A stretch of DNA of 64,000 bases from Limosilactobacillus reuteri (GTDB taxonomy: Bacteria; Bacillota; Bacilli; Lactobacillales; Lactobacillaceae), in NCBI RefSeq assembly GCF_013694365.1, contig NZ_CP059275.1, positions 62,001 through 126,000 on the forward strand. Direction: 5' to 3'. A program made the position numbers and the translations under genes. Position 1 is the stretch's first letter. Every line of letters starts with the position of its first letter. Shown here in pieces: positions 1 to 64,000 of this stretch. The notes under the pieces were generated by a model that made no database searches, was not told the origin of the DNA, and saw only the letters and a program-made list of their open reading frames with translations.

Positions 1-150
1 GCTATTGATAGCAACTCTAACTTTGGGAACGTTCTAAAGAGCTGGGCCAAAAACCGCATCGAACAACTTCCTTTATCCGTACACTTTATCGATAACGCAA
101 AAAGCTTCAAGAAATCTGTTAAGCACCATCTTTCTTACATTCACAAGTAG
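1..150 (+). CDS. 3' end of an unrecognised gene
   Basis: Reading frame 1 is open from the first base to a TAG at 148-150, giving the last 49 residues of a protein whose start lies outside the window. The fragment is basic, rich in Lys and His, and ends in SYIHK. I do not recognise a family. In lactobacilli fni often follows the phosphomevalonate kinase gene, but this tail does not look like that kinase. That it is the end of a real gene is supported by the exact stop-to-start join at 150/151. Confidence 0.6.
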   Translation, partial: AIDSNSNFGNVLKSWAKNRIEQLPLSVHFIDNAKSFKKSVKHHLSYIHK

Positions 151-1194
151 ATGGAATCACGTCATGCCCAACGAAAAAACGAACACCTTTCATTAGCTGC
201 CAAATATTATGACCAGGTTCATCAACATCATTATTTTGATCAAGTGCGTCTAATTCATGATAGCTTACCTGAAATGACAACAGATGATGTTGATTTGCAT
301 GTCCAGTTAGCTGATAATTTAGAAATTGAATGTCCTTTTTATATTGAGGCAATGACTGGCGGAAGTGATCAAGCCCTTAAAGTCAACCAACAACTTGCTC
401 AATTAGCTCATAAACACCATTTAGCAATGGCAACTGGATCTCTCAGTATTATTTCAAAAGACCCCCAATCCTTTTCGTCTTTTGAAATAATTCGCGAAGA
501 AAATCCAAACGGTATTATTTTTGCAAATTTAAGTGCAAATGCCAGTCTTGACCAAGCGATAAATGCTATTTCCCTTTTGAAGGCAAATGCCCTTGAACTG
601 CATATCAATGCGGCCCAAGAATTAATTATGCCTGAAGGTGATCGCGATTTTAATTGGTTGGATAACATCCAATACCTTGTCAGTGAACTAGAAGTCCCAG
701 TTATTGTAAAAGAGGTTGGCTTTGGAATGAGCAAAACGACGATTGCCAAACTGCAAACCCATGACGTTCACCTCATCAATGTTAGTGGACGTGGTGGGAC
801 AAACTTTGCAGCGATTGAGAATCGGCGTAACCATGATATTAATTTTGAGAGTTTATTGGACTGGGGACAAACAACTCCCGAATCACTATTGGAAGCTCAT
901 TCAATTCGGCGCGGTAAAACTGAAATTATTGCCTCTGGCGGAATTACTTCTCCCCTCGATGTTATCAAGGCTGGTGTATTAGGCGCCCGGGCAGTTGGTG
1001 TTGCCGGTTACTTCCTCAATATTCTTCAAAATGAAGGCTATGAAGCATTAGACCAAACGCTCGGTGAATGGCAAGTGATTGTCAAACGCTTGCTCGCGCT
1101 CCTTGGTTGCTCATCATTTACCGAGCTTTCACGTGTTGAATATGTTTTAGGAACAGACTTACTATCATATGCTCGTCAACGACACTTACGCTAA
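151..1194 (+). CDS. fni: Type 2 isopentenyl-diphosphate delta-isomerase
   Basis: This 347-residue protein has the usual length for the FMN- and NADPH-dependent type 2 isomerase, which interconverts isopentenyl and dimethylallyl diphosphate at the end of the mevalonate route. Visible family marks are EAMTGGS near residue 67, which helps bind FMN and substrate; the glycine-rich SGRGGTNFAAIENRR segment near residue 214; and the phosphate-binding ASGGI segment near residue 265. It supplies the allylic primer for undecaprenyl carrier lipid and other isoprenoids. Other mevalonate genes are not in the window. The identification is firm. Confidence 0.95.
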   Translation: MESRHAQRKNEHLSLAAKYYDQVHQHHYFDQVRLIHDSLPEMTTDDVDLHVQLADNLEIECPFYIEAMTGGSDQALKVNQQLAQLAHKHHLAMATGSLSIISKDPQSFSSFEIIREENPNGIIFANLSANASLDQAINAISLLKANALELHINAAQELIMPEGDRDFNWLDNIQYLVSELEVPVIVKEVGFGMSKTTIAKLQTHDVHLINVSGRGGTNFAAIENRRNHDINFESLLDWGQTTPESLLEAHSIRRGKTEIIASGGITSPLDVIKAGVLGARAVGVAGYFLNILQNEGYEALDQTLGEWQVIVKRLLALLGCSSFTELSRVEYVLGTDLLSYARQRHLR

Positions 1195-1683
1195 ATGGTG
1201 ATTGAAGTGAATAAAATTAATTGGGGCAAATCAATTACAGTTGGTATAACGGCTGGTCTTGTTGCCGGCCTTGTTAAACTTGGTTGGGAAAATATTCTCC
1301 CACCACGGACACCAGAGCGAGATCAAACAAACCCACCACAAAAAATGCTTGAGCAATTTGGCGTTCCAACACAGATTACACATGCTACTTATACCTATTC
1401 CGGCCAACAGTTGCCATGGGTAAGCTATGTTGTTCACTTTAGTTTCTCAGCTGGTTTTGGAGTTCTCTATAGTATCGGTGGACAGTTAGCGCCGTGGATC
1501 AAAAAAGGCGATGGAATACCATTCGGGATTGCTGTTTGGGATTTCTTCCACCTCAAGTTAATGCCATTAATGGGAACAGTGCCTGCTGCAAAAGATCAAC
1601 CACTTGAAGAACATGTTTCTGAATTTTTAGGACATGCAATCTGGATGTGGACGATTGATGCATTAATAAAAAGTAAAAAATAA
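1195..1683 (+). CDS. YagU-like (DUF1440) membrane protein
   Basis: The 162-residue product resembles the YagU/DUF1440 inner-membrane family, whose E. coli member has been linked to acid resistance. The opening segment (GITAGLVAGLVKLGWENILPP) is a glycine-rich membrane helix followed by a PPRTPERDQTNPP loop typical of the family. Two more hydrophobic stretches follow, around residues 75-95 and 105-125, and a short Lys-rich tail ends the protein. The start is ATG at 1195, but a GTG three codons in could also serve. The role in this organism is unknown. Confidence 0.8.
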   Translation: MVIEVNKINWGKSITVGITAGLVAGLVKLGWENILPPRTPERDQTNPPQKMLEQFGVPTQITHATYTYSGQQLPWVSYVVHFSFSAGFGVLYSIGGQLAPWIKKGDGIPFGIAVWDFFHLKLMPLMGTVPAAKDQPLEEHVSEFLGHAIWMWTIDALIKSKK

Positions 1684-1691
1684 AAATAATA

Positions 1692-1705: not shown

Positions 1706-1724
1706 AAAACTCCTAGTCCAAAAT

Positions 1725-4144: not shown

Positions 4145-4864
4145 ATGAATCGGGAGTTGAAGCCCGGCTATAACCTGCAAATCGCTACACATAAGCAATT
4201 TGTCCTTGATTACGGGCTGTTTTCAAATCCAACTGACACCAGGACCTTAGTGCCATCCCTTACCCAGTTTCATGCTTTAGATTTCTTTAAGCATATCGTT
4301 GCCGATGCCGGTTATGGTAGTGAGTACAATTATACAATGATTCTTGATCGGTTTGAAAAGCGGCCGGTTATCCCATACACCACCTATCAAAAGGAACAGA
4401 AACGTAAATTTAAAAACGATCCAACTAAATCACAAAATTGGCAGTATAATGCCGAGGATGATTACTACATCGATCATTTAGGAGTCCGTTTTAGCTTTTA
4501 TCGTTATAGTAAGCGAACCGATAAATATGGTTTCGAACGTGGTTTCAAACTCTATCGAGCGGATAAGCACCAACTGTCAGTGCAATTGGATGAGTTGGCA
4601 AAAACACCAGGTGGTCGTCAACGCTATATGAAGGTTAACCCAACCTGGAATTATTACAAGGCTAAAGTTAAAGATGCCCTCTCAAGTGACGAAGGCAAGG
4701 CAATTTATCGTCGACGGAAGTTCGACGTTGAGCCAGTCTTTGGTCACATGAAGAGGGATTTTGGCATACGCCGAACTCATCTCCGTGGCCAAGGGGCTGT
4801 GGAAAATGACATTGGGGCTAGCCCTGGTGGCATTAAATCTAACGAAACTTGGCCAATCAATTAG
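4145..4864 (+). CDS. IS1182 transposase C-terminal fragment (repeat of 2661-3380)
   Basis: This segment is identical to 2661-3380, from an internal ATG to the stop of the frameshifted tail, 239 residues. It carries the second half of the DDE catalytic domain: HIVADAGYGSEYNY near residue 49, where the second catalytic Asp is expected, and RRRKFDVEPVFGHMKRDFG near residue 201, with the likely catalytic Glu. The last 17 residues are out of the family's frame. The 183 bases that separate the two ORFs in the element are missing here. Confidence 0.85.
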   Translation: MNRELKPGYNLQIATHKQFVLDYGLFSNPTDTRTLVPSLTQFHALDFFKHIVADAGYGSEYNYTMILDRFEKRPVIPYTTYQKEQKRKFKNDPTKSQNWQYNAEDDYYIDHLGVRFSFYRYSKRTDKYGFERGFKLYRADKHQLSVQLDELAKTPGGRQRYMKVNPTWNYYKAKVKDALSSDEGKAIYRRRKFDVEPVFGHMKRDFGIRRTHLRGQGAVENDIGASPGGIKSNETWPIN

Positions 4865-7054
4865 ATGATTACATTTGATGAACAACAACGTGTTTTTCAC
4901 TTAAAAAATAAAGAAATTTCCTATTTATTTTCAATAGAAGAGGGAAATATCCTCAGTCACCTTTATTTTGGACCGGCAATTCGTAACTACCATGATGAAC
5001 GCCGATATCCACGAGTTGATCGTGGATTTTCAGGGAACCTTCCTGGATCGATGGACCGAACTTACTCTAAAGATGATTTGTTGCAGGAGTATTCGGGAAA
5101 CAATACCGGAGACTATCGTGTGCCTGCAATTATTATCAAAACAGAAAATGGTTCACGACTGACTGATTTCCGTTACAAGTCTTATAAGATTTTACCGGGG
5201 AAGCCCAAACTAGCTGGGTTACCTGCATCTTATGTTAAAAGTGATAAAGAAGCAGAAACATTGGAAGTTACTTTGGTTGATGAAACAATCGGTGCACAAC
5301 TTATTCTTTCATACACTATCTATAACGAACGGCCGGTTATTACACGGAATGCGCGGTTAGTAAACACAAGCAATCAAGAATTACGAATTGAAAAGATTGC
5401 CTCAATGCAACTGGATTTAACTAAACATGATTATGACGTTATCTCCGTTCCAGGCCAATACGCTCTTGAACGACAACCTGAACGACAAGAATTACGTCGG
5501 GGAATAACAGAATTTTCTAGCCGTCGAAATTCTAGTTCTCATCATATGAATCCGTTTGTGGCCTTGGTTGACAAGAACACCGATGAATTTCAGGGAAATG
5601 CTTTGGGAGTGCTCCTTGTCTACTCAGGTAATCACCAGTTTACCTTGGAAAAAGATCAGATCGACCAGATTCGCTTAATAACTGGAATTAATGATTATAA
5701 CTTTGAATGGGTTCTTGAACCGGGAAAAGATTTTCAGACACCTGAAGCAATCATGGGCTTTAGTCAGCGTGGCTTAAATGGGATGTCACAAGTATTCCAT
5801 AAGTTATTACGAGACCGGGTTGCTCGCGGTAAGTATCAATATGCAGACCGACCAATTGTTATTAATAACTGGGAAGCGACCTTCTTTGACTTTGATGATA
5901 AGAAGTTAGACCAAATTATTGATGAAGCAAAGCCATTGGGAATTGAAATGTTTGTTCTTGATGACGGCTGGTTTGGCCACCGGAATGATGATAATTCATC
6001 GCTTGGTGATTGGTTTGTTAACCAGGATAAGCTTACTGGTGGATTAAAGCGGGTAGCAGACCGGACCCACGAGCATTGCATGAAATTTGGTCTCTGGTTT
6101 GAGCCAGAAATGATTTCAGTTGACTCTAAGTTATATAAGGAACATCCAGACTATGCCTTACATGAACCAAACCGTGGAATGACACTTTCTCGTAATCAAT
6201 TAGTGCTAGACTTTAGCCGTAAAGAAGTCGTTGATAATATTTACAATCAAATGTGCTTAATTTTAGATAAGGTGCCACTTGACTATATTAAATGGGACTT
6301 CAACCGTAATCTTACTGAGGTCTTCTCTAGCGCAGCGGATGCAGAACATCAAGGAGAAGTTAGCCACCGTTATGTTTTAGGTTTATATGACTTAATGGAG
6401 CGGTTAGTTACCCGTTATCCTAATATCTTGTTTGAAGGCTGTTCTGGCGGTGGTGGCCGCTTTGATGCTGGTATTCTTTACTACATGCCGCAAAGTTGGC
6501 CATCAGATGATACAGACGCGGTTGAACGTTTAAAGATTCAATACGGAACATCTTTAACTTATCCAATCTCATCTATGACGGCGCATGTATCGGTTTCACC
6601 TAACCAGCAAACTGGCCGTTCTACCAGTTTTAAGATGCGGGGCGATGTTGCCATGAGTGGGGTCTTTGGATATGAACTTGACTTAGCAGATTTGACTGAA
6701 GAGGATCGGCAAATGGTAAAGGAACAGATCAAATTTTATAAGGCTCACCGCCACTTAATTCAATATGGTGACTTTATTCGCTTAGAAAGTCCTTTTGATA
6801 GCAATACAGTCGCCTGGGAATTTGTCAGTCCGGATAAGTCAGAAGCACTGCTATTTATGTTTAAGCAGTTGCATACTAACCGTTTTGAAATTAATAATAC
6901 CAAGATGGCAGGGCTTGATCCAACAATTGATTATCATGATGAAATGACTGATAAGACTTATGGTGGAGATGAATTGATGAATGTCGGTTTGTTCCGTGAC
7001 CCGACTCGTACGGGGGACTTCACTTCCGAAGTGCATTACTTTAAAGGTAAATAA
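4865..7054 (+). CDS. aga: Alpha-galactosidase, GH36
   Basis: The 729-residue enzyme hydrolyses terminal alpha-1,6-galactose from melibiose, raffinose and stachyose. Length and layout fit the tetrameric bacterial GH36 group: an N-terminal beta-sandwich, a central barrel and a C-terminal sheet. The nucleophile is Asp478 in DYIKWDFNR and the acid/base is Asp548 in WPSDDTDA; both positions match those known for the Geobacillus enzyme. FVLDDGWFG near residue 364 and the glycine-rich GCSGGGGRFD near residue 523 line the active site. No signal peptide is seen, so it acts in the cytoplasm. The next gene is a LacI-type regulator, a plausible controller. Confidence 0.95.
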   Translation: MITFDEQQRVFHLKNKEISYLFSIEEGNILSHLYFGPAIRNYHDERRYPRVDRGFSGNLPGSMDRTYSKDDLLQEYSGNNTGDYRVPAIIIKTENGSRLTDFRYKSYKILPGKPKLAGLPASYVKSDKEAETLEVTLVDETIGAQLILSYTIYNERPVITRNARLVNTSNQELRIEKIASMQLDLTKHDYDVISVPGQYALERQPERQELRRGITEFSSRRNSSSHHMNPFVALVDKNTDEFQGNALGVLLVYSGNHQFTLEKDQIDQIRLITGINDYNFEWVLEPGKDFQTPEAIMGFSQRGLNGMSQVFHKLLRDRVARGKYQYADRPIVINNWEATFFDFDDKKLDQIIDEAKPLGIEMFVLDDGWFGHRNDDNSSLGDWFVNQDKLTGGLKRVADRTHEHCMKFGLWFEPEMISVDSKLYKEHPDYALHEPNRGMTLSRNQLVLDFSRKEVVDNIYNQMCLILDKVPLDYIKWDFNRNLTEVFSSAADAEHQGEVSHRYVLGLYDLMERLVTRYPNILFEGCSGGGGRFDAGILYYMPQSWPSDDTDAVERLKIQYGTSLTYPISSMTAHVSVSPNQQTGRSTSFKMRGDVAMSGVFGYELDLADLTEEDRQMVKEQIKFYKAHRHLIQYGDFIRLESPFDSNTVAWEFVSPDKSEALLFMFKQLHTNRFEINNTKMAGLDPTIDYHDEMTDKTYGGDELMNVGLFRDPTRTGDFTSEVHYFKGK

Positions 7055-8074
7055 ATGACTGGTATCAGAAAAATAGCACGTGAGGCTGGTGTATCTCCTG
7101 CCAGCGTTTCACGTGTCTTAAGCAATGATTCATCTTTTTCAGTAGGTGAACAAACAAGAGCACGAATTAAAAAAGTAGCAGCAAAGTATAATTACCATCC
7201 CCACCTAAACAGGACCGTTACTCCGCCGCCAACTCCTCGTTCAATTCTAGTGCTTACAACTCATTCGCTCGAGACAGAAGCTCATGACCCTTATTTCATT
7301 CAAGTCCATGATGGAATTATTCAGGAAGCTTCCAAGCAAAACATTCAAATCAAAGCTTTTGTTCGTTTTCCCAATAAAGCCTTTCAATTTACTGACGCTC
7401 AAAAATATGATGGCGTAATTGTTGCCGGAGTTTTTACGCAAGAATTCTACGCTAATTTAGCTAAAAACAATCCCCATATCGTTTTAATTGACGACTATCG
7501 ATATCTCCCCGCTTACGATATTATCCGTAATTCGTATTTTGAAGCCACTCAGATCGTTCTTGATCAGTTACTAGAAAATGGACTTAATAAAATCGCCTTT
7601 ATCGGTGGAAATATTCATCCCATGAATAATAATGGCGAAACGACAGACTCGTATCAAGATATTCGAGCTAAGGCCTATTTGATGTGGACAAGACTTCATA
7701 ATATTTCTCCATTGATTGTCCTTAATGGGTGGACTCCTAAAGATGGCTTTGACAGCATGAATACTCTTTTGAAAGATAATTTTCAGGCCGCCTTAATAGC
7801 TAGTGACCAACTAACTATCGGCGCATATCGAGCCCTGAAGCAACACCAGCTTAAAGTTCCTCAAGACCTTCAAATTATTAGCTATAATGATTCGGATATT
7901 GCTGAATATTTAGTTCCGTCTCTTTCATCAATCAATCCAGCGAGTTTTTTAATGGGGACAATAGCAGTTCAAAGACTAGTCCACCGTCTGAATAATCCAA
8001 ATGAAATCCCTATTCATATTAATTTGCCTGCCAAAGCCACTTGGCGCGAAAGTTCAGAAATTAATTTGAATTAG
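7055..8074 (+). CDS. LacI-family transcriptional regulator
   Basis: The 339-residue protein opens with a classic LacI helix-turn-helix (IRKIAREAGVSPASVSRVLS, residues 4-23) and a hinge region ending around residue 60. A periplasmic-binding-protein-like sensor domain follows, with IIIRNSY-type linker sequence and ASDQLTIGAYRAL near residue 248. It sits between an alpha-galactosidase and a fructokinase, so control of galactoside or sucrose-family sugar genes is likely. The effector cannot be read from sequence. The family call is secure; the regulon is inference from neighbours. Confidence 0.9.
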   Translation: MTGIRKIAREAGVSPASVSRVLSNDSSFSVGEQTRARIKKVAAKYNYHPHLNRTVTPPPTPRSILVLTTHSLETEAHDPYFIQVHDGIIQEASKQNIQIKAFVRFPNKAFQFTDAQKYDGVIVAGVFTQEFYANLAKNNPHIVLIDDYRYLPAYDIIRNSYFEATQIVLDQLLENGLNKIAFIGGNIHPMNNNGETTDSYQDIRAKAYLMWTRLHNISPLIVLNGWTPKDGFDSMNTLLKDNFQAALIASDQLTIGAYRALKQHQLKVPQDLQIISYNDSDIAEYLVPSLSSINPASFLMGTIAVQRLVHRLNNPNEIPIHINLPAKATWRESSEINLN

Positions 8075-8953
8075 ATGTTATTAGGAAGTATTGAAGCTGG
8101 CGGTACTAAGTTTGTCTGTGCTGTCGGTGACGAAAATTTTAATGAAATTGATAAAAAAATCATCCCTACAACCACCCCCGAAGAAACTTTAGGGGCTTCA
8201 ATTGAATTTTTTAAGCAGTACCCTGAACTAGCTGCACTTTCAATTGCCAGTTTTGGACCAATTGATACTAATCCGGCTAGTGAAAAGTACGGTTATATTA
8301 CTGATACTCCTAAAGTTAAGTGGCAAAATTGCAATTTTGTCGGCACAATGACTGACGCCCTCAATATTCCCGTCTACTGGACAACGGACGTCAATGGTTC
8401 GGTTTACGGTGAATATGTCAATTTAAAAGATAAGTATGATAATCCGGCCTTGGTTTACTATACCCTTGGAACTGGCGTGGGTGCTGGAGCAATTCAAAAT
8501 GGCCGCTTTATTGGTGGAATTAGTACCCCTGAAATGGGCCACGTTCGCTTACAACGCCACCCAGCTGATCTAAACTTTACTGGTATCTGCCCTTACCACC
8601 ACGATTGCTTGGAAGGATTGGTAGCTGGACCAACTTTCAAGGCGCGGCTCGGTATTAGCGGCGAAGATGTTCCTGATAATCACCCTGTTTGGGATATCAT
8701 GGCATATTACGTTGCACAAGCGGCAGTTCAGGTAACTGCCATTTTGCGGCCACAAAAAATTATCTTCGGTGGAAGTGTTTCGCGCCCAGCCTTTCTTGAA
8801 CGGGTTCGGAAGCAATTTGCAATGTTATGGAATGATTATCTTCCAGTTGGATCGCTCGATGAATATATTGTCAACCCTTCTGTTCCAGGAAATGGCTCTG
8901 CTACTCTCGGTAATTTTGCATTGGCTAAACACTTAATCGAAACAAATAAATAA
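8075..8953 (+). CDS. scrK: Fructokinase, ROK family
   Basis: The 292-residue kinase phosphorylates fructose at C6 using ATP. The N-terminal phosphate loop GSIEAGGTKFVCAV and the GTGVGAGAI segment near residue 131 are ROK marks. The zinc-binding stretch keeps its His and Cys ligands (GHVRLQRHP, then CPYHHDCLEG, roughly residues 152-190), which is characteristic of the ScrK/Gmk-type fructokinases and less so of glucokinases. Free fructose from sucrose or raffinose breakdown is the probable substrate, which fits the alpha-galactosidase nearby. Confidence 0.92.
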   Translation: MLLGSIEAGGTKFVCAVGDENFNEIDKKIIPTTTPEETLGASIEFFKQYPELAALSIASFGPIDTNPASEKYGYITDTPKVKWQNCNFVGTMTDALNIPVYWTTDVNGSVYGEYVNLKDKYDNPALVYYTLGTGVGAGAIQNGRFIGGISTPEMGHVRLQRHPADLNFTGICPYHHDCLEGLVAGPTFKARLGISGEDVPDNHPVWDIMAYYVAQAAVQVTAILRPQKIIFGGSVSRPAFLERVRKQFAMLWNDYLPVGSLDEYIVNPSVPGNGSATLGNFALAKHLIETNK

Positions 8954-9625
8954 ATGAAGGAAATCGTTCAAGAAGTAGTTAATACCGGGTTTAATGGAAT
9001 CCTCTTAATTGCTGCCAACCCAGTCGATATCTTGACATATGCTGTTCAAAAAATTTCTGGTTTTCCAGCACATAAAGTAATTGGATCAGGAACCTCTCTT
9101 GATTCGGCACGCTTAAGAGTAGCGATTGGTAAAAAGCTAGCTATTAATCCCCGAGATGTTCATGTTGATATGTTAGCAGAGCACGGTGATTCAGAATTTG
9201 CTGCTTATTCTTGTGGGACAATCGGTGGAACGCCTTTAATGGATTATGTTTTAGCTAATGGGCTAACAAAGCAAGAATTGTTAAAACTAGAAGAACAAGT
9301 ACGTAATAAGGATTATGAGATTATTAACCGGAAAGGCGCAACATATTATGGAGTAGCGACTTCTTTGGCAAGAATAACAAAAGCAATTTTGTATGACCAA
9401 AGTACAGTATTACCCGTAAGTGCATATTTAGATGGTGAATATGGAGAAAAAGATATTTACCTCGGGACACCGGCTGTAATTGATAAAGACGGTATTCAAA
9501 GGGTAATAGAATTACCATTAGATTCGCGTGAACAAGAGGCTTTAATTAATTCAGCATCAGTTTTGCGTGAAACGACAGCCAATGGAATGACTAAAGCGGG
9601 TCTATTGAACTATCTTTGGAAATAA
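8954..9625 (+). pseudogene. L-lactate dehydrogenase, N-terminally truncated
   Basis: These 223 residues match only the second part of L-lactate dehydrogenase, which is normally about 310-320 residues. Present are AANPVDILTY, the substrate-binding GTSLDSARLR and the catalytic His in AEHGDSE. Missing are the first 90-100 residues with the GxGxxG NAD-binding fold and the mobile active-site loop with its Arg. The ATG used here is an internal Met in the family. Without the NAD site it cannot be a normal dehydrogenase. A remnant, or one half of a frameshifted gene, is most likely. Confidence 0.85.
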
Positions 9626-10264
9626 GTGCCCAGCTCAGTTTTGATTGGTGCGCTTTCTGGTTTTTTGTATCATGATCGAAAAAGTTATTTTAAGGTAATG
9701 ACGCCGTGGCATGGTTTTATTGTGGGGATTTTGATGGAAAGTATTCAAATGCTTTTTATCTTACTATTCGGTCCCACGGGATGGGTCTTAGTTAAATATA
9801 TTGCCCTGCCAATGATCTTGGTTAATTCACTGGGGACATCGATTTTCTTATCAATCATTTCAATGTACCTTCACCAAGAGGAAGAACTGCGCGCTATGCA
9901 AACTCATTCTGTCTTGCAATTAACAAATGAAACCTTGCCTTATTTTCGTCAAGGATTAAATAAAAGCTCAGCGCAACAAGTAGTCAAAATTATTAAAAAA
10001 TATACTAATTTTGATGCAGTGAGTATCACTGACAGACAACGAATACTGGCGCATATTGGGGCTGGTGATGATCACCATATTCCAGGAAATAGGTTAGAAA
10101 CTTCTTTATCCAGTAATGTGATCAAAACGGGCCAAATAAAGATCGCAAATAATAGTAAAATGATTGGTTGTATCGATCCCAATTGTCCTTTAGAAGCAGC
10201 GATTGTTGCTCCTCTGCGAATTGGGAATGAAGTTATCGGCACGTTAATGATCGATGGCATTTAA
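9626..10264 (+). pseudogene. LytS-type sensor, middle fragment (last 5TMR helices plus GAF)
   Basis: The 212-residue segment continues the protein whose N-terminus is at 10265-10657. It starts inside the LytS-type 5TM receptor domain (SSVLIGALSGFLYH), has helices near residues 28-70, and then a GAF-like domain (roughly 85-210) ending IGTLMIDGI. The histidine-kinase and ATPase domains that follow in LytS are missing, and no segment in the window supplies them. Its first 19 bases (9626-9644) are identical to the last 19 bases of the N-terminal fragment. So the two overlap in the native gene, in different frames. Confidence 0.85.
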
Positions 10265-10657
10265 ATGATATATTTAACAATTTTAATGGCTGAGCGCGTT
10301 GGTTTAATTATTATTCTAGCGTTTTTGCTGGTTAGTGTACCCCTATTTCGCCGCCTATTATTTAATCAAACCATTAGTGCCAAAATTCAGCTAACGATTC
10401 TTTTTTCTATTTTTGCTATTATGGCTAATATGACGGGAATAGAAATTGACGCAAATAACCAGTTGCATAATAAAATTATTCTTACGGCCATTTCAACAAA
10501 TGACTCGATTGTCAATGTCCGAATTTTGGCTGTTTCAGTTGCTGGAATTATTGGTGGGCCATGGGTTGGTAGTTTAGTAGGATTAGTAGCGGGGGTCCAT
10601 CGGATTATTCAAGTGCACCCCTGCAAGGTTGGTTTTATGTGCCCAGCTCAGTTTTGA
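10265..10657 (+). pseudogene. LytS-type sensor, N-terminal fragment
   Basis: The 130 residues make the first four helices of a LytS/5TMR sensor: MAERVGLIIILAFLL, an interior helix, then NDSIVNVRILAVSVAGIIGGPWVGSLVGLVAGVHRIIQ, the family's hallmark. The frame breaks near 10616-10619, a run of four C. With one more C the sequence would read HPLQGWFYVPSSVLIG and join the fragment at 9626 smoothly. So the native gene upstream-to-downstream order is this segment, then 9626-10264. Confidence 0.85.
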
Positions 10658-49855: not shown

Positions 49856-50389
49856 ATGAAAATCCGGAAAGCAACAATGGCAGATTTAGATGTAGTAGTA
49901 GATATTTTACGTGATGGACGTAACCAGTTAGCTGAGCGGGGCGTTGACCAATGGCAGGGGGATTATCCGAACGTTACCCATGTAAAAGAAGATATTGAGA
50001 ATGGTTATGCTTATCTCGTTAAGGCAGATGATGGACAAACAGTTGGCACGTTAGCAATTGTTGAAGCACCGGATCATTTTTATGACAAACTCAACGGGGA
50101 ATGGCTAATTAATACTGAAAATTATGTTGTAATCCACCGCGTAGCTATTCATTCACGGCACGCAGGAAAAGGATATGCATCCAAATTATTTTTGAGTTTG
50201 ATTGAGTATTTGGAGACCGAGCGTCCAGAAATCAAATCAATTCGTTTAAGCACAAATGAAAATAATATGGCAATGCAACGGATCGCAACTAAGAGCGGCT
50301 TTAAAAAAGTGGGGACCCTCCATGGCGCCTTTCGTCCAAGTGAGTTGTCTTATGTTTATGAACTGTTAACAAAAGTGCGTGTAGCATAA
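49856..50389 (+). CDS. GNAT-family N-acetyltransferase
   Basis: The 177-residue protein has the GNAT acetyl-CoA site in VHRVAIHSRHAGKGYASKLF near residue 97 and the late strand SIRLSTNENNMAMQRI. The substrate is not deducible. It directly precedes the gluconate kinase but shows no sign of belonging to that pathway. Confidence 0.88.
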   Translation: MKIRKATMADLDVVVDILRDGRNQLAERGVDQWQGDYPNVTHVKEDIENGYAYLVKADDGQTVGTLAIVEAPDHFYDKLNGEWLINTENYVVIHRVAIHSRHAGKGYASKLFLSLIEYLETERPEIKSIRLSTNENNMAMQRIATKSGFKKVGTLHGAFRPSELSYVYELLTKVRVA

Positions 50390-51922: not shown

Positions 51923-53266
51923 ATGCCTTTACTTATTGTTTTAATCGGGGTTATTATCTTAATTTTCATGATTGTTAAACTAAAGATGAACACTTTCGTT
52001 AGTTTAGTAATCACATCATTCATCGTTGGTTTGTTACTCGGCCTTCCACTTACAAAAATTCCGCAGACAATTGAAACCGGGATCGGGGGCCAATTAGGAC
52101 ACTTAGCTATTATCTTTGGTTTCGGGTCAATGCTTGGTAAATTAGTTTCTGATGCCGGTGGTGGATATCGAATTGCAACAACATTGATTAATAAGTTTGG
52201 TCGGCGTTGGATCCAAGTTGCTGTTATCCTTGCCTCCTTTATCATTGGGTTAGCATTATTCTTTGAAGTTGGGCTTGTCGTTGTTTTACCAATTATCTTT
52301 ATTATCGCCCACGAGCTTGATATGCCATTGATGTATCTTGGTATTCCAATGGCAGCAACCTTAAACGTTACCCACGCTTTCTTACCACCACATCCCGCTC
52401 CAACTGCTATCACGGACATTCTTGGTGCAAACCTTGGACACGTCTTGCTGCTTGGTATTTTAGCTGCAATCCCAACAATCATTATTGCTGGTCCAGTTTA
52501 TAACTGGGTATTACAAAAAGTTTATCCGCGTGTTTACCGTAAAAATATTGATATTTCAGTTCTTGGCGAATATAAAGAATTCAAGCTTGAAGAAACGCCT
52601 AAGTTCGGTATCTCCGTTCTAACTGCAATGATGCCAGTTATTTTAATTGCCGTTGCTACTATTTGTTCATTTATTTTCCCTAAGAACAATCCAGTTAATG
52701 AATTCATTCAATTTATTGGTGCACCTGACCTTGCAATGCTTCTTTCATTAATCTTCGCAATCTTTACAATGGGATTATGGCGAAACAAGAAAATGGAAGA
52801 AATTTCAACCGCCCTTGCCGACTCAATCAAGCAAATTTCTGTAATGCTTTTGATCATCGGTGGTGGTGGTGCCTTCAAGCAAGTTCTTGTTGATGGTGGA
52901 ATTTCAAAATATATTTCTGGTTTATTCGCTCAAACTAACATTTCACCAATTCTAGCTGCTTGGTTAATTACTGCTTTATTACGGATGTCACTTGGATCCT
53001 CAACAGTTGCTGCGATGACCGCTGCCGGCCTTGTGGTTCCAATGGCTCACCAATTTGGCGGTAACTCAATTATGGCAACATTGATGGTTCTTTCCATCGG
53101 TGCTGGTTCTGTCTTTTGTGGACACGTTAATGATGCCGGTTTCTGGATGATTAAGGAATATTTTGGTCTTTCATTAAAGGAAACTTTACTTTCGTGGACA
53201 ACTCTTACTTCCGTCTTAGCTCTTGCTGGATTGGGAGCCGTCTATGCCATTTCATTATTTGTCTAA
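51923..53266 (+). CDS. gntP: Gluconate:H+ symporter
   Basis: The 447-residue permease has the GntP family pattern with about 12 helices, including HLAIIFGFGSMLGKLVSDAGG near residue 52, NVTHAFLPPHPAPTAI near residue 147 and DAGFWMIKEYFGLS near residue 405. It brings gluconate in with protons. It is placed between the first kinase and the regulator, as expected of a gnt operon. Confidence 0.95.
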   Translation: MPLLIVLIGVIILIFMIVKLKMNTFVSLVITSFIVGLLLGLPLTKIPQTIETGIGGQLGHLAIIFGFGSMLGKLVSDAGGGYRIATTLINKFGRRWIQVAVILASFIIGLALFFEVGLVVVLPIIFIIAHELDMPLMYLGIPMAATLNVTHAFLPPHPAPTAITDILGANLGHVLLLGILAAIPTIIIAGPVYNWVLQKVYPRVYRKNIDISVLGEYKEFKLEETPKFGISVLTAMMPVILIAVATICSFIFPKNNPVNEFIQFIGAPDLAMLLSLIFAIFTMGLWRNKKMEEISTALADSIKQISVMLLIIGGGGAFKQVLVDGGISKYISGLFAQTNISPILAAWLITALLRMSLGSSTVAAMTAAGLVVPMAHQFGGNSIMATLMVLSIGAGSVFCGHVNDAGFWMIKEYFGLSLKETLLSWTTLTSVLALAGLGAVYAISLFV

Positions 53267-54271
53267 ATGACGCAACATACTACTATCGCTGACGTTGCTA
53301 AAGCAGCTGGTGTTTCGGTGACTACTGTTTCACGTATTATTAATGGTCGTTATGATAAAATGCGCTCAGCAACGCGGAAACGGGTGGAAAAAGCAATTAA
53401 AGACCTTCACTTTGTTCCAACCGCTTCTGCTCGACAGCTTCGCCAAACTCATAGTCACGTTGTTGGAATCCTCGTTGGAGATATTTCTAACCCCTTTTCA
53501 TCTTTACTTGCCAAAGGGATCGATGATGTTTTGCAACAGGCAGGCTATGATATCCTCCTCATGAATACGAACAACTCTCAGGAAAATGAAAGTCGTGCTC
53601 TTCAGCGACTATACCAACAACGAGTTGACGGCATTATTGTCCAACCTAATTCCCGTCACTTTAGTCAATTTGCTCCTGCTATTCATAACGATATTCCACT
53701 AGTGATCGTTGACCGTGAAGTTGATGACCAGCCTTCTACAGTTGGTAAAGTCACTTCTGCTAATCGCGATGCTTGTTATAACCTCGGTAAGATTCTGTAT
53801 CAATATGGTTATCAAAATATTTTAACTGTCAGCGCCCACTTTGCGGAGGCATCGGGTCAAATTCCTCGAATTGCCGGTTTAAAGGTTGCTGCTGCTGATA
53901 ATGGGCTAAGCTATCACAATATTGAAACCCGTGGACATGATCGCCAATGGCTTGCTAAAACGTTTCTGCAACAGTTAAATAAGCTCAAAGGCAAAACTGC
54001 TGTCGTTTCATTAATGGGACCTATTTTATTTGACCTTTTAGCAATTTTTAAAGAACTAAACCTTTCTTTCCCTGATGATCTTGGCTTAGTTAGCTTTGAT
54101 GATTGGGAATGGTCACAGTATGTCGCTAATGGAATTTTTCTGTTGAAGCAAGATATGGAGTTAATGGGTAGCTTAGCAGCTAATAAGCTTTTAACACAGA
54201 TTAACCAACAAAGTACAATCAGTTCCACTACCCTTTTACCAGTTGAAATCATTGCACACCAGTCACTTTAG
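53267..54271 (+). CDS. LacI-family regulator of gluconate genes
   Basis: The 334-residue protein has a LacI-type helix-turn-helix (IADVAKAAGVSVTTVSRIIN, residues 6-25) and a sensor domain (GILVGDISNPFSSLLAKGI near residue 67, VSFDDWEWS late). Its place between gntP and a gluconate kinase makes a GntR-type repressor, with gluconate or its phosphate as effector, the natural inference. Confidence 0.9.
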   Translation: MTQHTTIADVAKAAGVSVTTVSRIINGRYDKMRSATRKRVEKAIKDLHFVPTASARQLRQTHSHVVGILVGDISNPFSSLLAKGIDDVLQQAGYDILLMNTNNSQENESRALQRLYQQRVDGIIVQPNSRHFSQFAPAIHNDIPLVIVDREVDDQPSTVGKVTSANRDACYNLGKILYQYGYQNILTVSAHFAEASGQIPRIAGLKVAAADNGLSYHNIETRGHDRQWLAKTFLQQLNKLKGKTAVVSLMGPILFDLLAIFKELNLSFPDDLGLVSFDDWEWSQYVANGIFLLKQDMELMGSLAANKLLTQINQQSTISSTTLLPVEIIAHQSL

Positions 54272-55801
54272 ATGAACTACTTAATTGGTGTTGACGTTGG
54301 AACCTCTAGCACAAAGGCCGTTTTATATGATCAAGATGCGCAGGTGATCACACAAGCTAATTATGGCTACGAATTGCATCGTAATGCCGCGGGAATGGCA
54401 GAGCAAGAGCCAGAAGAAGTAATTAATGCTGCGGAACAAACTATTCATGATGTGGCTACAGCAGCTGACCTCAGTACAGGAAAACTACTGGCAGTCTCAA
54501 TTTCAAGTGCAAATCAAAGCCTCCTCTTATTAGATAAAAATAAGAAGCCTCTTTCACGGTTAATCACTTGGGCAGATAGTCGAGCTCAGCGCGCAGCAGA
54601 CAACCTTAAGATGATGACTGAAGGACAACAATTATATATGAAGACGGGGGTTCCTGTTCACCCTATGTCAACCTTGACAAAGCTCCTTTGGTTAAGGGAA
54701 GACGAACCTGACTTATTTAACCGCACAGCATATTTTGCTGATATTAAGGCTTACCTTTTCTACCGGTTATTTAATGAATTTAAGGTTGATATGTCAATCG
54801 CTTCCTCAACTGGCTTGATGAACCTTAAAACTTGTGATTGGGATGACCAGGCTCTTCGGGTTGCAGGAATAACCAAAGATCAACTGCCTGAAATTGTCGA
54901 TGGAACAACTCAAGCAACTGGTTTAGTGCCCGAAGCCCAAGAAAAACTAGGAGTACCAGCTGATACGCCATTTGTTTATGGTGCTTACGATGGTGCCCTT
55001 TCAAATATTGGTGTTGGTGCAACCAAGCAAAATACAGTAGCAATTACAATCGGTACTTCCGCAGCTGTACGAGTCGTAACTGATCATCCTGTTATTGATC
55101 CAGAACGCCGCCTCTTCTGCTATGCTATTAATAAAGGATTGTGGGTCGTTGGTGGTCCGCTTAATAACGGTGGCGATGTCTATGAATGGGCAGTAAAACA
55201 CCTTGTCGATAGTAGCGCAGTTAAAAACGAACAGGTCGATCCTTATACTTTGGCAAATCACGTTATTGAAGGAGTACCAGCAGGCGCGCATGGGCTTCTC
55301 TTTCATCCCTTCCTGGGCGGTGAACGGGCACCATTGTGGAATGCTAAAGCGCGTGGTAGTTTCTTTGGGCTTTCTCATATCCATACACGGGCTGATATGC
55401 TACGAGCAGTTATGGAAGGAATTAGCATGAACATTGCAACAGTCTTCCAAGCAGTACGAGCGTTAGTCGGTGAACCAGCGAGCGTTACTGCAACAGGTGG
55501 CTTTGCTCGCTCAAAAGTATGGCGCCAAATGCTTGCTGATATCTTAAACTGTCCGGTTAACGTTCCTGACTCATTTGAATCTGGCTGCCTCGGGTCAGTA
55601 GTTATGGCTATGCAAGGCCTGGGAATGATCGATAGTCTTGATACACCACAGAAGTTCATTGGCAAGGTTAGTTCTTACCAACCAGATCCAGCCGCAGTAA
55701 AAGTATATCAACGCTATACTCCACTCTTCCAACAAATTGAAGATATGCTTGCTCCGGCTTATTCTGAAATCGCTAAACTACAAGAACGCCAAAACAATTA
55801 A
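54272..55801 (+). CDS. gntK: Gluconate kinase, FGGY family (copy 2)
   Basis: The 509-residue kinase aligns over its whole length with copy 1 and shares the motifs IGVDVGTSSTKAVLYD, AITIGTSAAVRVVTDHPVIDP, GERAPLWNAKARG and TATGGFARSKVWRQMLAD. Long stretches in the second half differ at only a few residues, while the first half has diverged more. All catalytic motifs are intact, so both copies are probably active. Confidence 0.9.
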   Translation: MNYLIGVDVGTSSTKAVLYDQDAQVITQANYGYELHRNAAGMAEQEPEEVINAAEQTIHDVATAADLSTGKLLAVSISSANQSLLLLDKNKKPLSRLITWADSRAQRAADNLKMMTEGQQLYMKTGVPVHPMSTLTKLLWLREDEPDLFNRTAYFADIKAYLFYRLFNEFKVDMSIASSTGLMNLKTCDWDDQALRVAGITKDQLPEIVDGTTQATGLVPEAQEKLGVPADTPFVYGAYDGALSNIGVGATKQNTVAITIGTSAAVRVVTDHPVIDPERRLFCYAINKGLWVVGGPLNNGGDVYEWAVKHLVDSSAVKNEQVDPYTLANHVIEGVPAGAHGLLFHPFLGGERAPLWNAKARGSFFGLSHIHTRADMLRAVMEGISMNIATVFQAVRALVGEPASVTATGGFARSKVWRQMLADILNCPVNVPDSFESGCLGSVVMAMQGLGMIDSLDTPQKFIGKVSSYQPDPAAVKVYQRYTPLFQQIEDMLAPAYSEIAKLQERQNN

Positions 55802-56347
55802 ATGGCCGCATGGAAAAAATGGTGGGTTTCATTTGTAATGATGCTTCAAGTAATCGTTGGAATTGTTGTCGTATCATTATGGTTTTATCGTGACCAAACT
55901 TGGACAATTCCAGTTAATGATTGGCTTTATAGCCCCATCGGTCAAAGTTTCTCAGCAGGAGTCGCAGTATTTTTAATCATTGTTGCTTTAACCGTAATAG
56001 CGATTGCTGTTTTTCGTCCCACAACAACTAAACAAATGACAATCGCTAGAGATGGTGCTAATAAAGTTCAAATTGATCAGCATGCAGTTGAACACAGCTT
56101 AACTACTTCAATTGCCAAATTTGACCTTTATAACCCAGTGATTAACCTCAAAATGCACCGGAATAATCATAATGCAGACGTTACCGTTCATGGAATGCTC
56201 TCTAAGAGAACCAATCCAAAACTAATTCATACAGTACTACTCCAGACAATTAAAGAAAACCTAAAACGAGATTTCGACATTGACCTTAATAAATTACACA
56301 TTAAGCTAAGTCCCTACTCAAACAGAGAATCAGTTAACATTGTCTAA
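55802..56347 (+). CDS. amaP: AmaP, membrane anchor of Asp23
   Basis: The 181-residue protein has two membrane helices (roughly residues 9-29 and 44-67) and then a cytoplasmic domain. It matches AmaP, which holds the Asp23 protein at the membrane. Asp23 and the DUF2273 protein follow directly, in the order seen in staphylococci and lactobacilli. Confidence 0.9.
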   Translation: MAAWKKWWVSFVMMLQVIVGIVVVSLWFYRDQTWTIPVNDWLYSPIGQSFSAGVAVFLIIVALTVIAIAVFRPTTTKQMTIARDGANKVQIDQHAVEHSLTTSIAKFDLYNPVINLKMHRNNHNADVTVHGMLSKRTNPKLIHTVLLQTIKENLKRDFDIDLNKLHIKLSPYSNRESVNIV

Positions 56348-56539
56348 ATGAAACTTGCTACAATTGGCGTTATATTAGGATCGCTTATCAGTATTAGTTG
56401 GATTATGTGGGGCTTTTTCCCAATGATCGGTATTCTATTAGCTGTCACTATCTTGGGCGGAATTGGCTATATTCTTGATGCAAAGGGCTATTCATTAAAT
56501 AAACTTGCGATAAAAATGTTAGATAAATTTGCCAACTAA
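56348..56539 (+). CDS. DUF2273 small membrane protein
   Basis: The 63-residue protein has two hydrophobic stretches (IGVILGSLISISWIMWGFF and IGILLAVTILGGIGYIL) and a Lys-bearing tail. It matches DUF2273, the constant partner between amaP and asp23. Its role in the envelope complex is not known. Confidence 0.88.
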   Translation: MKLATIGVILGSLISISWIMWGFFPMIGILLAVTILGGIGYILDAKGYSLNKLAIKMLDKFAN

Positions 56540-56923
56540 ATGACAACCACTACAAATAATAAAACAATTGATGAGCAATTAACATTCGATGATCAAGTAA
56601 TTGAAAAAATCGCTGGGATCACCGCTAGCAAAGTTCCTGGAATCCTTTCCCTTGATGGAAATATGTTTAGTGAATTAGCAGATAAAGTAACTTCCGGAAG
56701 CAATCCAACCAAGGGTATTAATGCCGATGTTGGTGAAAAGCAAGTCGCATTAAAAATGGAAGCTACCATCGAATATGGCAAAAGCGCTCCAGAAATTTTT
56801 AAGGCTGTTTGTTCTGAGGTACAACACGCAATTAATAAAATGACTGGCTTGAATTTAGTTAAGTTTGAGCTACATATCAATGATGTTAAAACAAGAGAAG
56901 AAGTAGAAAAAGATACAAAATAA
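56540..56923 (+). CDS. asp23: Asp23/Gls24 family envelope stress protein
   Basis: The 127-residue protein has the family start (DDQVIEKIAGITASKVPGILSLDG) and end (MTGLNLVKFELHINDVKTREE). Asp23 forms a dense layer under the membrane, anchored by AmaP, and responds to alkaline and envelope stress. A full three-gene set is present. Confidence 0.94.
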   Translation: MTTTTNNKTIDEQLTFDDQVIEKIAGITASKVPGILSLDGNMFSELADKVTSGSNPTKGINADVGEKQVALKMEATIEYGKSAPEIFKAVCSEVQHAINKMTGLNLVKFELHINDVKTREEVEKDTK

Positions 56924-59584: not shown

Positions 59585-62050
59585 GTGAGAAACGGAAAAA
59601 TTGAACATATGACGCTCGAACAGATCATGGGTGATCGTTTTGGGCGTTATTCAAAATCAATTATTCAAGAACGAGCTTTACCTGACATTCGTGACGGATT
59701 AAAACCGGTTCAGCGCCGGATTTTATTTGCCATGAATAAAGATGGAAATACTTATGATAAAGGGTTTCGTAAGTCTGCTAAATCAGTCGGGAACGTAATG
59801 GGTAACTTCCACCCCCACGGTGATAGTTCAATTTATGAAGCATTAGTTCGGCTAAGTCAGGATTGGAAATTACGTGAACCCCTAATTGAAATGCATGGTA
59901 ACAATGGATCAATGGATGGTGATCCACCAGCGGCCATGCGTTATACTGAAGCGCGGCTTAGTAAAATAGCAGGTTTAATGCTTCAAGATATCGACAAAGA
60001 TACAGTTGAAATGGCCTTAAACTTTGATGATACTGAAAAAGAACCGACAGTTTTACCAGCACGTATTCCTAACTTACTCGTTAATGGAGCAACTGGAATT
60101 TCTGCTGGATATGCTACTGAGATTCCAACACATAATTTAAGCGAAGTTCTTGATGCACTGATTTATCTTATCAAGCATCCAACTGCTTCTTTGGATAAGT
60201 TAATGGAATTTATTCCTGGCCCTGATTTCCCAACTGGTGGAATCATTCAGGGGATTGATGGCATTCGTAAGGCATACCAGACTGGTCGCGGTCGGGTTGT
60301 AGTGCGAGCAAAAACGGAGATTGAAACCTTGCGGGGTGATCGTCAACAAATTAATGTGACGGAGATTCCTTATGAAGTAAATAAGGCGCAACTGGTTAAG
60401 CGAATTAACGATCTGCGCCTTGCCAAAAAAGTTGAGGGAATCGCGGAAGCTCGCGATGAAACTGATCGTAGTGGATTACGAATTGCAATCGAACTAAAGC
60501 GGGGAGCTAATGCGAACGGTATTCTTAATTACTTATTAAAGAACACTGATTTACAGATTAACTATAACTTCAATATGGTTGCGATTGATGACCAGCGGCC
60601 AATGCGTGTTGGATTGAAGCGAATTTTGACTTCCTATCTTGAATTCCAGAAAGAGATTATTCGTCGACGGACACAATATAACCTAACGAAGGCTCAACAA
60701 CGATTGCATATTGTCGAAGGGTTAATCAAAGCACTCTCAATTTTAGATAAGGTCATTAAAACGATTCGAGCAAGTAAGAATCGTAAGGATGCAAAGGAAA
60801 ACTTAGTAAAAGAATACAACTTTACACCTGAACAGGCCGAAGCAATTGTTACCTTGCAACTTTATCGCTTAACAAATACGGATGTAACTGAGCTGAAAAA
60901 AGAACAAGAACAATTAAATTCACGGATTAATGAATATCAGTTAATCTTGACTAACGAAAATGAGCTAGCAAAAGTTCTTACTAAGGAAATTAGGGCCATT
61001 AAGAAGGAATTTGGCAATCCACGACGGACCAAGATTGAAAATCTTGTTGAAAAACTTGAGATTGATACTAAAGTTACGGTTGCCAACGAAGATGTTGTGG
61101 TCTTAGTTTCGCATGCGGGCTATATCAAACGAAGCAGCATTCGTTCCTTCAAGGCATCGGAGGCAGAAGAAAACGGTCTCCGAGAAGACGATTACCCATT
61201 ATTGATTCAACAAACAAATACATTATCGCATTTATTTATGTTTACCAATCTTGGGCATATTATTTACCGCCCAATTCATGAAATTGCAGATGCGCGGTGG
61301 AAAGATACCGGCGAACATATCTCACAAACAATCGGTTTAGCGGATAATGAAGAGATCATTAAAGCAATGATTTTTGATAAACTAGATCAGCCAGGAACAA
61401 TCATCATGGGAACTAGCGATGGTCAAGTAAAACAAACGGCCTTTAATGACTATAAGCCTGGTTCACGTTACAAGAGCCATGCAAGTGTCGCAATTAAGCT
61501 TAGGGATAATGCGCAAGTTGTAAATGTTGATTACTATGAACCAACAAATGAGAACCGTTCACTATTGACGATTAGTCGCCAAGGATATGCAGTGCGGTAT
61601 GATGTTGCAGATGTTCCTGTAACAGGAATCCGGACAGCTGGTGTACGGGCCATTAATTTGAAAGATGATGACCAAGTAGCAGATCAAATCTTGGTTAAGG
61701 ATGGTCAAGATATTGCTGTAATTACTCAACGAGGTGCATTTAAGGAAATGCCAATTGATGAGATTGAAGTTGGGGCACGAGCACGGCGGGGCGAACTTGT
61801 CCTTCGGCGGTTGAAATCACATCCTCATGAAATTGCAGACTTCCTTGCTTACGACCATGATTATCAAGGTGCTTTTGAGACTATTACTAACCGGCCAGCA
61901 TTCCAAGATATAATGGCTACTGACCATCATCTAAGTTCGATTAAGTCAAATGGAACTTTTGTAATTGATACCGATACGCAAGGGGAACCAGTAAAACTTC
62001 GAATGAAACAAACGAATGTTTTATCCGAAGAACCTGTTAGCCAAAATTAA
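59585..62050 (+). CDS. parC: DNA topoisomerase IV subunit A
   Basis: The 821-residue protein is the DNA-cutting subunit of topoisomerase IV, which separates daughter chromosomes. The catalytic Tyr120 is in AMRYTEARL. The quinolone-determining region GNFHPHGDSSIYEAL has Ser81 and Glu85, the drug-sensitive residues. The C-terminal beta-pinwheel repeats are present (VLVSHAGYIKRSS and AVITQRGAFKEMP). It starts with GTG. Natively parE should precede it, but here follows it. Confidence 0.96.
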   Translation: MRNGKIEHMTLEQIMGDRFGRYSKSIIQERALPDIRDGLKPVQRRILFAMNKDGNTYDKGFRKSAKSVGNVMGNFHPHGDSSIYEALVRLSQDWKLREPLIEMHGNNGSMDGDPPAAMRYTEARLSKIAGLMLQDIDKDTVEMALNFDDTEKEPTVLPARIPNLLVNGATGISAGYATEIPTHNLSEVLDALIYLIKHPTASLDKLMEFIPGPDFPTGGIIQGIDGIRKAYQTGRGRVVVRAKTEIETLRGDRQQINVTEIPYEVNKAQLVKRINDLRLAKKVEGIAEARDETDRSGLRIAIELKRGANANGILNYLLKNTDLQINYNFNMVAIDDQRPMRVGLKRILTSYLEFQKEIIRRRTQYNLTKAQQRLHIVEGLIKALSILDKVIKTIRASKNRKDAKENLVKEYNFTPEQAEAIVTLQLYRLTNTDVTELKKEQEQLNSRINEYQLILTNENELAKVLTKEIRAIKKEFGNPRRTKIENLVEKLEIDTKVTVANEDVVVLVSHAGYIKRSSIRSFKASEAEENGLREDDYPLLIQQTNTLSHLFMFTNLGHIIYRPIHEIADARWKDTGEHISQTIGLADNEEIIKAMIFDKLDQPGTIIMGTSDGQVKQTAFNDYKPGSRYKSHASVAIKLRDNAQVVNVDYYEPTNENRSLLTISRQGYAVRYDVADVPVTGIRTAGVRAINLKDDDQVADQILVKDGQDIAVITQRGAFKEMPIDEIEVGARARRGELVLRRLKSHPHEIADFLAYDHDYQGAFETITNRPAFQDIMATDHHLSSIKSNGTFVIDTDTQGEPVKLRMKQTNVLSEEPVSQN

Positions 62051-64000
62051 GTGGCCAAAGAAGAAGTAAAATATGATGCCTCATCCATACAAGTATTAAA
62101 AGGGCTTGAGGCAGTACGAAAAAGACCAGGGATGTATATTGGGTCTACTGACTCACGTGGATTGCACCACCTGGTATATGAAATAGTAGATAATGCCGTT
62201 GATGAAGCATTATCCGGTTATGGTGATGAGATTAACGTCACCATTGAAGCAGACAATGCGATTACAGTTCAAGATCATGGTCGGGGGATGCCGGTTGGGA
62301 TGCATGCTTCCGGTAAGCCGACACCTGAAGTTATTATGACGGTTCTCCATGCTGGAGGAAAATTTGGTCAGTCAGATGGTTATAAAACTTCAGGAGGGCT
62401 TCATGGTGTTGGAGCTTCCGTAGTAAATGCCTTATCATCACATTTGACGCTGACAATTGTCCGTGATCACGTCCGTTACCAAGAAATTTTTAAGGATGGC
62501 GGTCAACCAGTTGGAACGTTGAAAAAATTAGGAAAAACTAAAGCTGAGAACGGAACGACCGTCTCATTCAAGCCGGACCCGAAGATTTTTTCAACTACTG
62601 TTTATGACTACAATACCTTAGCTAATCGGCTCCGTGAGTCGGCCTTTTTATTGAAAGGGATTAAGATTACCCTTACCGATAAGCGAGCTGGTCAAGAAAA
62701 ACAAGATGTATTCCAATTTGACAATGGAATTCAAGAATTCGTTTCTTATCTTAACGAGGGTAAGGACGTTTTAGGAAAGACGCTCTACTTTGACGGAAAG
62801 CAAGATGGGGTCGAAGTTGAAGTAGCGGCTCAATATAATGATGGTTACTCTGAGAGCTTGTTATCATTTGTCAATAATGTCCGAACTCCAGATGGTGGTA
62901 CTCATGAAGCCGGATTCCGGAGTGCCTGGACGAAAACTTTCAATGAATACGCAAAAAAGGTTGGGCTGTTAAAGGCTAATGATAAAAATCTAGAAGGTAG
63001 TGATGTTCGGGAAGGGTTAACAGCCGTTATTTCTGTCCGGATTCCTGAACGTCTACTTCAATTTGAGGGTCAGACAAAGGATAAACTGGGAACTCCTGAA
63101 GCACGGAAGATTGTTGATGCGATTGTCAGTGAGCAGCTTAACTATGCCCTAATGGAAAATGGCGACTTTGCTCAGATGTTAATTCGTAAGGCATTAAAGG
63201 CGCGTGAAGCTCGAGAAGCTGCCCGTAAAGCCCGTAATCAAGCTCGTGGTGGTAAACGAAAGGGCAAAAAAGAACGCAATCTTTCTGGAAAATTGACTCC
63301 GGCCCAATCAAAAAATGCTAAGAAAAATGAATTATTCCTAGTCGAAGGGGATTCGGCCGGTGGTTCAGCCAAGCAGGGGCGTGACCGTAAATTCCAAGCA
63401 ATTTTACCATTACGAGGGAAAGTGCTAAATACAGAAAAGGCGAAGTTAGATGATGTATTAAAAAACGAAGAATTGAACACAATTATCTATACTGTTGGTG
63501 CTGGTGCTGGTTCTGAATTTAACGTTGAAGATTCAAACTACGATAAGATTATTATTATGACTGATGCCGATGATGATGGTGCTCATATTCAGATTCTTCT
63601 TCTTACCTTTTTCTACAAGTATATGCGGCCAATGATCGAAGCTGGAAAGATCTATATTGCTCTTCCACCACTTTATCGCTTGCAACGCGGACGTGGAGCT
63701 AAGACTAATATCACGTATGCGTGGACTAATGAAGAATTAACAAAATTGACTAAAAAGATGGGCAAGGGAGCACAATTACAACGGTTCAAAGGGCTTGGTG
63801 AAATGAATGCTGATCAGTTGTGGGAAACGACGATGAATCCAGAAACTCGGACACTAATCCAAGTTCGGATCGAGGATGCTGAATTAGCTGAGCGTCGTGT
63901 AACTACCTTAATGGGTAATAAGGTGGAACCACGGCGAGAATGGATTGAAGAAAATGTCCAATTCACGTTAGCCGATGATCAAGAATCTGATAAATTAGTT
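62051..64000 (+). CDS. parE: DNA topoisomerase IV subunit B, 3' end cut by the window
   Basis: The frame stays open for 650 residues from GTG 62051 to the window end; the family is slightly longer, so only a short tail is missing. The N-terminal GHKL ATPase part has EAVRKRPGMYIG and DNAVDEAL, with GGLHGVGASVVNAL. The TOPRIM part has LVEGDSAGGSAKQGRDR and IMTDADDDGAHI. GyrB is the alternative, but the pairing with parC and the KVLNTEKA form favour ParE. Confidence 0.95.
   Translation, partial: MAKEEVKYDASSIQVLKGLEAVRKRPGMYIGSTDSRGLHHLVYEIVDNAVDEALSGYGDEINVTIEADNAITVQDHGRGMPVGMHASGKPTPEVIMTVLHAGGKFGQSDGYKTSGGLHGVGASVVNALSSHLTLTIVRDHVRYQEIFKDGGQPVGTLKKLGKTKAENGTTVSFKPDPKIFSTTVYDYNTLANRLRESAFLLKGIKITLTDKRAGQEKQDVFQFDNGIQEFVSYLNEGKDVLGKTLYFDGKQDGVEVEVAAQYNDGYSESLLSFVNNVRTPDGGTHEAGFRSAWTKTFNEYAKKVGLLKANDKNLEGSDVREGLTAVISVRIPERLLQFEGQTKDKLGTPEARKIVDAIVSEQLNYALMENGDFAQMLIRKALKAREAREAARKARNQARGGKRKGKKERNLSGKLTPAQSKNAKKNELFLVEGDSAGGSAKQGRDRKFQAILPLRGKVLNTEKAKLDDVLKNEELNTIIYTVGAGAGSEFNVEDSNYDKIIIMTDADDDGAHIQILLLTFFYKYMRPMIEAGKIYIALPPLYRLQRGRGAKTNITYAWTNEELTKLTKKMGKGAQLQRFKGLGEMNADQLWETTMNPETRTLIQVRIEDAELAERRVTTLMGNKVEPRREWIEENVQFTLADDQESDKLV

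Follow-up and report, generated by a model that had tools for sequence, protein, structure and literature searches.

The assembly from which the window (the whole stretch of 64,000 nt analysed here) was taken is almost certainly a concatenated list of features and not the sequence of a chromosome. In this record the order of the features was kept, their strand was normalised, the spacers between them were dropped, overlapping or nested features were doubled, and pairs of repeats were placed at the end. All of these points are demonstrated below, from the joints of the window, from normal relatives and from the rest of the same assembly.

Tiling of the window by abutting features

The window is divided into 71 segments with zero remainder, namely 70 coding pieces, two of which are truncated by the window edges, and one insertion-sequence segment. 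The coding pieces account for 97.2% of the sequence and the insertion sequence takes up the remainder. A normal start codon was found in 69 of the 71 segments (57 ATG, 9 GTG and 3 TTG), and 69 of the 71 are terminated by a stop codon; the segments without a normal start or stop are only the window-edge pieces and the insertion-sequence segment. At 68 of the 70 joints the stop codon is followed immediately by the next start codon with zero spacer, and the remaining two joints flank the insertion sequence. All 70 coding pieces lie on the plus strand. Only scattered ORFs, the longest of 187 aa, were found on the minus strand of the window, and no chain of abutting ORFs is present there. These zero-spacer joints and the uniform strand bear out the original prediction that the window consists of excised and re-oriented genes without intergenic DNA. 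Its claim that non-coding DNA is kept only in the insertion sequence is right within the window, where no tRNA was found; elsewhere in the assembly the non-coding entries also include rRNA, tRNA and repeats.

One abutting run in the window comprises 66 closed ORFs and also takes in the last ORF, which is open. A control search with ORFs of at least 90 bases revealed no run of three or more abutting ORFs on either strand of 17 pieces (317,601 bp) from four normal genomes of the genus, and none was found in eight further control loci. The chain in the window is therefore not due to chance. Features of the window are collected in Table 1.

Table 1. Segments of the window and pairs of segments with duplicated ends (strands in the third column are those in relatives).
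Position (bp)	Strand	Feature
1..64000	+	71 features joined end to end, every one in sense; place in assembly G000:C1:62001-126000
1..1683	+	Three coding segments, all minus in G037 and G415 as compared
1-150	+	Coding piece cut by window edge
151-1194	+	Type 2 IPP isomerase
1195-1683	+	Coding segment
1684..3505	+	IS1182-family element, whole, with non-coding ends; the only non-coding segment
3506..4144	+	First ORF of the element, second entry; letter-identical to part of 1684-3505, from 1839
4145..4864	+	Second ORF of the element, second entry; letter-identical to part of 1684-3505, from 2661
4865..8953	+	Three segments; strands +, -, - in G037; 163 and 121 bp missing at joints
8954..9625	+	L-lactate dehydrogenase-like gene piece; match starts at profile residue 103
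9626..10657	+	Two pieces of one 587-aa ORF of G037, in reverse order
15983..21181	+	sufB, sufU, sufS, sufD, sufC; each in sense
31529..34831	+	ribH, ribBA, riboflavin synthase, ribD; each in sense
40118..48220	+	Type I restriction-modification: hsdS-like ORF (weak match), integrase, hsdS, hsdM, hsdR
49646..50389	+	Two segments, opposite strands in G037, 494 bp apart there
50390..56923	+	Seven segments, all minus in G037, listed in transcription order
59585..64000	+	parC, then parE (cut by window edge)
10265/9626		Duplicated end (later/earlier start), 19 bp
17393/15983		Duplicated end, 8 bp
17855/17393		Duplicated end, 14 bp
19094/17855		Duplicated end, 20 bp
33773/33170		Duplicated end, 8 bp
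43448/42215		Duplicated end, 8 bp

The IS1182-family element was entered as a whole and then again as its two ORFs, and the first 6 bases of its segment are the last 6 of the preceding CDS. An in-frame TAG splits the transposase ORF at 1839-3380 into pieces. Both halves match the family NF033551, as in IS1182-family insertion sequences, with 150.7 and 137.8 bits; since the ORF is split, neither half reaches the family cut-off of 270. The split and the repeated entry distinguish this copy from the known family. Related copies were found in four Limosilactobacillus plasmid records with 92.8-95.5% identity, and two of the four are annotated as IS1182 family.

Order, strand and spacers in normal relatives

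The window was compared with 120 kb of L. reuteri WF-AA1-C (contig NZ_JAJGTZ010000044.1, here G037). A total of 57 of the 71 segments match this genome with a mean identity of 94.7%. For 54 of the 71 the match spans 95% or more of the segment; these 54 follow one another in strict order, with 28 on the plus and 26 on the minus strand. Eighteen strand switches occur among 49 adjacent pairs. The native gap is positive in 44 of these pairs and four pairs overlap, each overlap being written twice in the window. The spacer missing from the window amounts to 10,126 bp, of which 5,633 bp belong to two large blocks (3,164 and 2,469 bp). The 17 segments without a full-length match in the 120 kb include the insertion-sequence entries and the regions 31529-34831, 35888-38155 and 38273-48916. 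For the last of these regions no full-length match was found in the stretch of G415 either, and G016 matches only two of its segments in full length.

Three other genomes gave the same picture. From G415, a single contig of 1,999,618 bp, 120 kb were compared, with 46 full-length segments and 16 strand switches in 41 pairs (34 positive gaps and 6 overlaps). One of these 46 matches, 54272-55801 (69.8%), is paralogous and located at the place of 50390-51922, and because of it the test of colinearity on G415 came out false. For segments 55802-64000 the compared 120 kb of G415 gave no match. The comparison with G020 and G016 was limited to about 44 kb of the former and 34 kb of the latter; 29 segments of G020 gave positive gaps in all 25 pairs with 10 strand switches, and 26 segments of G016 gave positive gaps in 16 of 21 pairs, four overlaps and six strand switches. 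Normal L. reuteri chromosomes (G037 and G415) thus hold the matched segments in the same order, the paralogue in G415 set aside, and with about 94-95% identity, but they use both strands, have spacers that in most cases measure tens to hundreds of bp, and write overlaps once. The alignment to an L. reuteri genome that had been proposed as a check places the segments at separate intervals, with spacers lost and many segments on the minus strand, and the mapping to G037 supports the original prediction that features were extracted, turned to sense and joined in genome order.

Bases shared by neighbouring genes provide further evidence. In six of the 70 adjacent pairs the last 8-20 bases of the later segment are identical to the first bases of the earlier one, and the same match of at least 8 bases was found in 1 of 4,692 non-adjacent ordered pairs. 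The first four duplicated ends are native overlaps of 19, 8, 14 and 20 bp in both G037 and G415, and of 19, 8, 14 and 18 bp in G016. The fifth (33773/33170) is a native overlap of 8 bp in G415, so that all five of the six pairs that can be checked are native overlaps; the sixth (43448/42215, where 42215-43447 and 43448-45109 have 8 end bases in common) is without counterpart in the relatives. Overlap bases exist once in the real chromosome and twice in the window.

In a list in coordinate order with each gene turned to sense, operons that run against the list show a reversed order of genes without a reversed strand. The order of the suf genes in the window is the reverse of the transcription order in G037 and G415, with the bases of three overlaps (8, 14 and 20 bp) present in two copies, and the order of the rib genes is the reverse of that in G415, with an overlap of 8 bp written twice; in G415 each of the two groups lies on one strand. 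Genes parC and parE are both on the plus strand in G037 with parE upstream, and in the window their order is reversed and 78 bp are missing. Blocks that run the opposite way, such as 50390-56923, remain in transcription order, and spacers of 13-180 bp are missing within this block. Spacers of 18 and 60 bp are missing at the joints within 1..1683, compared to G037.

Two big blocks of the relatives are absent from the window, one of about 3.16 kb at 9626 and one of 2.3-2.8 kb at 49646 (G020, G037 and G415). The first corresponds to the joint after the L-lactate dehydrogenase-like piece in G037, G016 and G415. About 100 N-terminal residues are missing from that piece, and the two pieces that follow, which have 19 end bases in common (9626-9644 and 10639-10657), fall within an ORF of G037 that we read as a histidine kinase. 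By our reading the first block contains the remainder of the kinase together with a response regulator and an LrgA-like protein. A search that was run without a positive control found no match in the window's assembly (G000) for 2,101 bp of the first block and 1,992 bp of the second. The two blocks may be strain differences. Since the genes that border the first block on either side are truncated, a real deletion is as likely for it as a loss at export; the block may also be absent through a gap in the parent sequence. Blocks dropped at export were set aside as proof of a list, though the sum of 10,126 bp includes both.

A Mrr-like restriction endonuclease followed by a type I restriction-modification locus, with two hsdS-type ORFs around an integrase, was observed at 38273-48220, and only short weak matches to this region were found in the regions of G037 and G415. 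The hsdS-type ORFs around the integrase suggest a specificity shuffled by a recombinase, for which spacing and strand are not to be judged from this record.

Rest of the assembly

The assembly is a single contig of 2,085,667 bp, for which a completeness of 100% and a contamination of 0.96% are listed. Beyond the window we sampled 28 pieces, about a quarter of the assembly, the first 20 of which are 20 kb each. Abutting chains on the plus strand cover 71-99.5% of 19 of these 20 pieces and 0% of the twentieth, which is the assembly end; no minus-strand chain was found in the 20. Five further pieces towards the end are covered by chains to 86%, 48%, 19%, 10% and 0% (the last four being L077-L080), and the coverage falls there because RNA and repeat entries take over. 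Two pieces around 16S genes have a coverage of 74% and 50%.

Piece L094 (G000:866001-886000) is occupied by one chain from 102 to 18584, in which the str-S10-spc-alpha block is listed from rplQ to rpsL, reversed and with each gene in sense. Ten of its genes were named by NCBIfam and the others from sequence and place. The textbook order of this block is the opposite. We searched the rplC/rpsJ joint of this piece in 397 genomes of the family, of which 392 match and 5 have no match. The joint is unbroken in G000 alone and gives two or three separate matches in the other 391. Among the matches listed, all places outside G000 end at or before base 660 or start at 660, and for genomes outside the matches listed the split rests on match counts.

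In a cluster of 21 tRNAs (L078) the neighbours are 0-3 bases apart or overlap by 1-2, with one gap of 16, and the 13 tRNAs in two pieces of G037 are 3-183 bases apart; the contrast is supporting only, as different clusters are compared and some native spacers are short. G000 contains three full-length 16S genes, all on the plus strand, plus five partial minus-strand matches. In L081 (G000:C1:1306001-1318000), directly after a full 16S gene, comes an inverted piece of 16S sequence about 300 bp long (183-2050 together), which may be a repeat entry that got in among the genes. The final 20 kb (L022) consist largely of repeat pairs, direct or inverted, with the copies side by side, and after shorter pairs at the start their lengths fall roughly from about 322 to 129 bp. 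For one pair of 231 bp, two more full-length copies (99%) lie at about 468-469 kb, and there are also six partial copies. No third copy with 100% identity is present in G000, and thus not every repeat entry has an exact source in the gene list. Copies of 5S rRNA as inverted neighbours and pieces of a group II intron entered several times were found at the end of G000 (L022 and L079), and both are apparently entries of a repeat list. The original prediction did not mention that overlap bases are doubled, that operons are reversed, that the insertion-sequence ORFs are entered twice, or that the rest of the assembly is alike and ends in repeat pairs.

The GC skew is positive in the window and in 27 of 27 pieces of G000 tested. 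We rejected it as proof, since normal relatives are positive in 9 of 11 pieces and it supports the reading only weakly.

Origin and meaning of the record

Feature FASTA files (.ffn or 'cds_from_genomic') list features in sense and in genome order, without spacers and with overlapping or nested bases repeated. The record resembles such a file in all these respects. It differs in that the entries were fused as one chromosome and that insertion elements and repeat pairs are included. The features of an L. reuteri-like chromosome (CDS, rRNA, tRNA, insertion elements and repeats) would have been exported singly, each in its own sense, and then joined in the order of genome coordinates without spacers to give a one-contig genome. 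We infer that the error arose when a feature FASTA was exported or submitted, and not at a later database step.

It is improbable that the concatenation was made downstream by the makers of the sequence collection or of the scan, with a normal chromosome in the public record. The sequence of the assembly in the collection agrees with the window, as such an origin would have it, but the other genomes in the collection are normal as far as tested, with the rplC/rpsJ joint split in 391 of 391 and no abutting chain in the 17 pieces of four of them, and the terminal repeat pairs resemble an annotator's export. Real reads scrambled by misassembly or a scaffolding error are a far more remote explanation: segments can generally be inverted and duplicated by this route, but at 68 of 70 joints the breaks coincide to the base with start and stop codons, the order is kept, gene borders are invisible to an assembler, and the joint positions already refute it. 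Least probable of all is a real chromosome so compact that it lacks intergenic DNA and carries every gene on the same strand. Such a chromosome would fit a window that is open and sense-coded throughout and a one-contig assembly listed as complete, but the sequence already refutes it, as overlap bases and insertion-sequence ORFs occur twice, operons are reversed with every gene in sense, a zero gap occurs in the relatives at only 1 of 49 (G037), 0 of 25 (G020), 1 of 21 (G016) and 1 of 41 joints (G415), rplC/rpsJ is split in all 391 other matching genomes, and promoters and ribosome binding would be left without upstream DNA.

The concatenated feature list is a data artefact and a database trap, which the completeness figure of 100% does not expose. 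Very probably a whole one-contig L. reuteri-like genome consists of pasted features and yet passes quality checks on gene content, and similar records may exist unnoticed. If this is true, a survey in which the record is included takes in false data, be it on operons, promoters, riboswitches, strand bias, GC skew or gene spacing. Similar records could be detected by tests for doubled overlaps and abutting ORFs. A narrow literature search turned up no account of either this assembly or records of its type. Analyses of RNA, synteny, regulation, spacing and strand on this assembly give false results. Because the window is a pasted gene list, conclusions on spacing, strand, operons and promoters drawn from it are invalid, and other findings on the window are to be dropped where they depend on how genes are spaced or oriented. 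The biology is ordinary, with nothing biologically new, and the gene content and protein sequences of the window are still usable.
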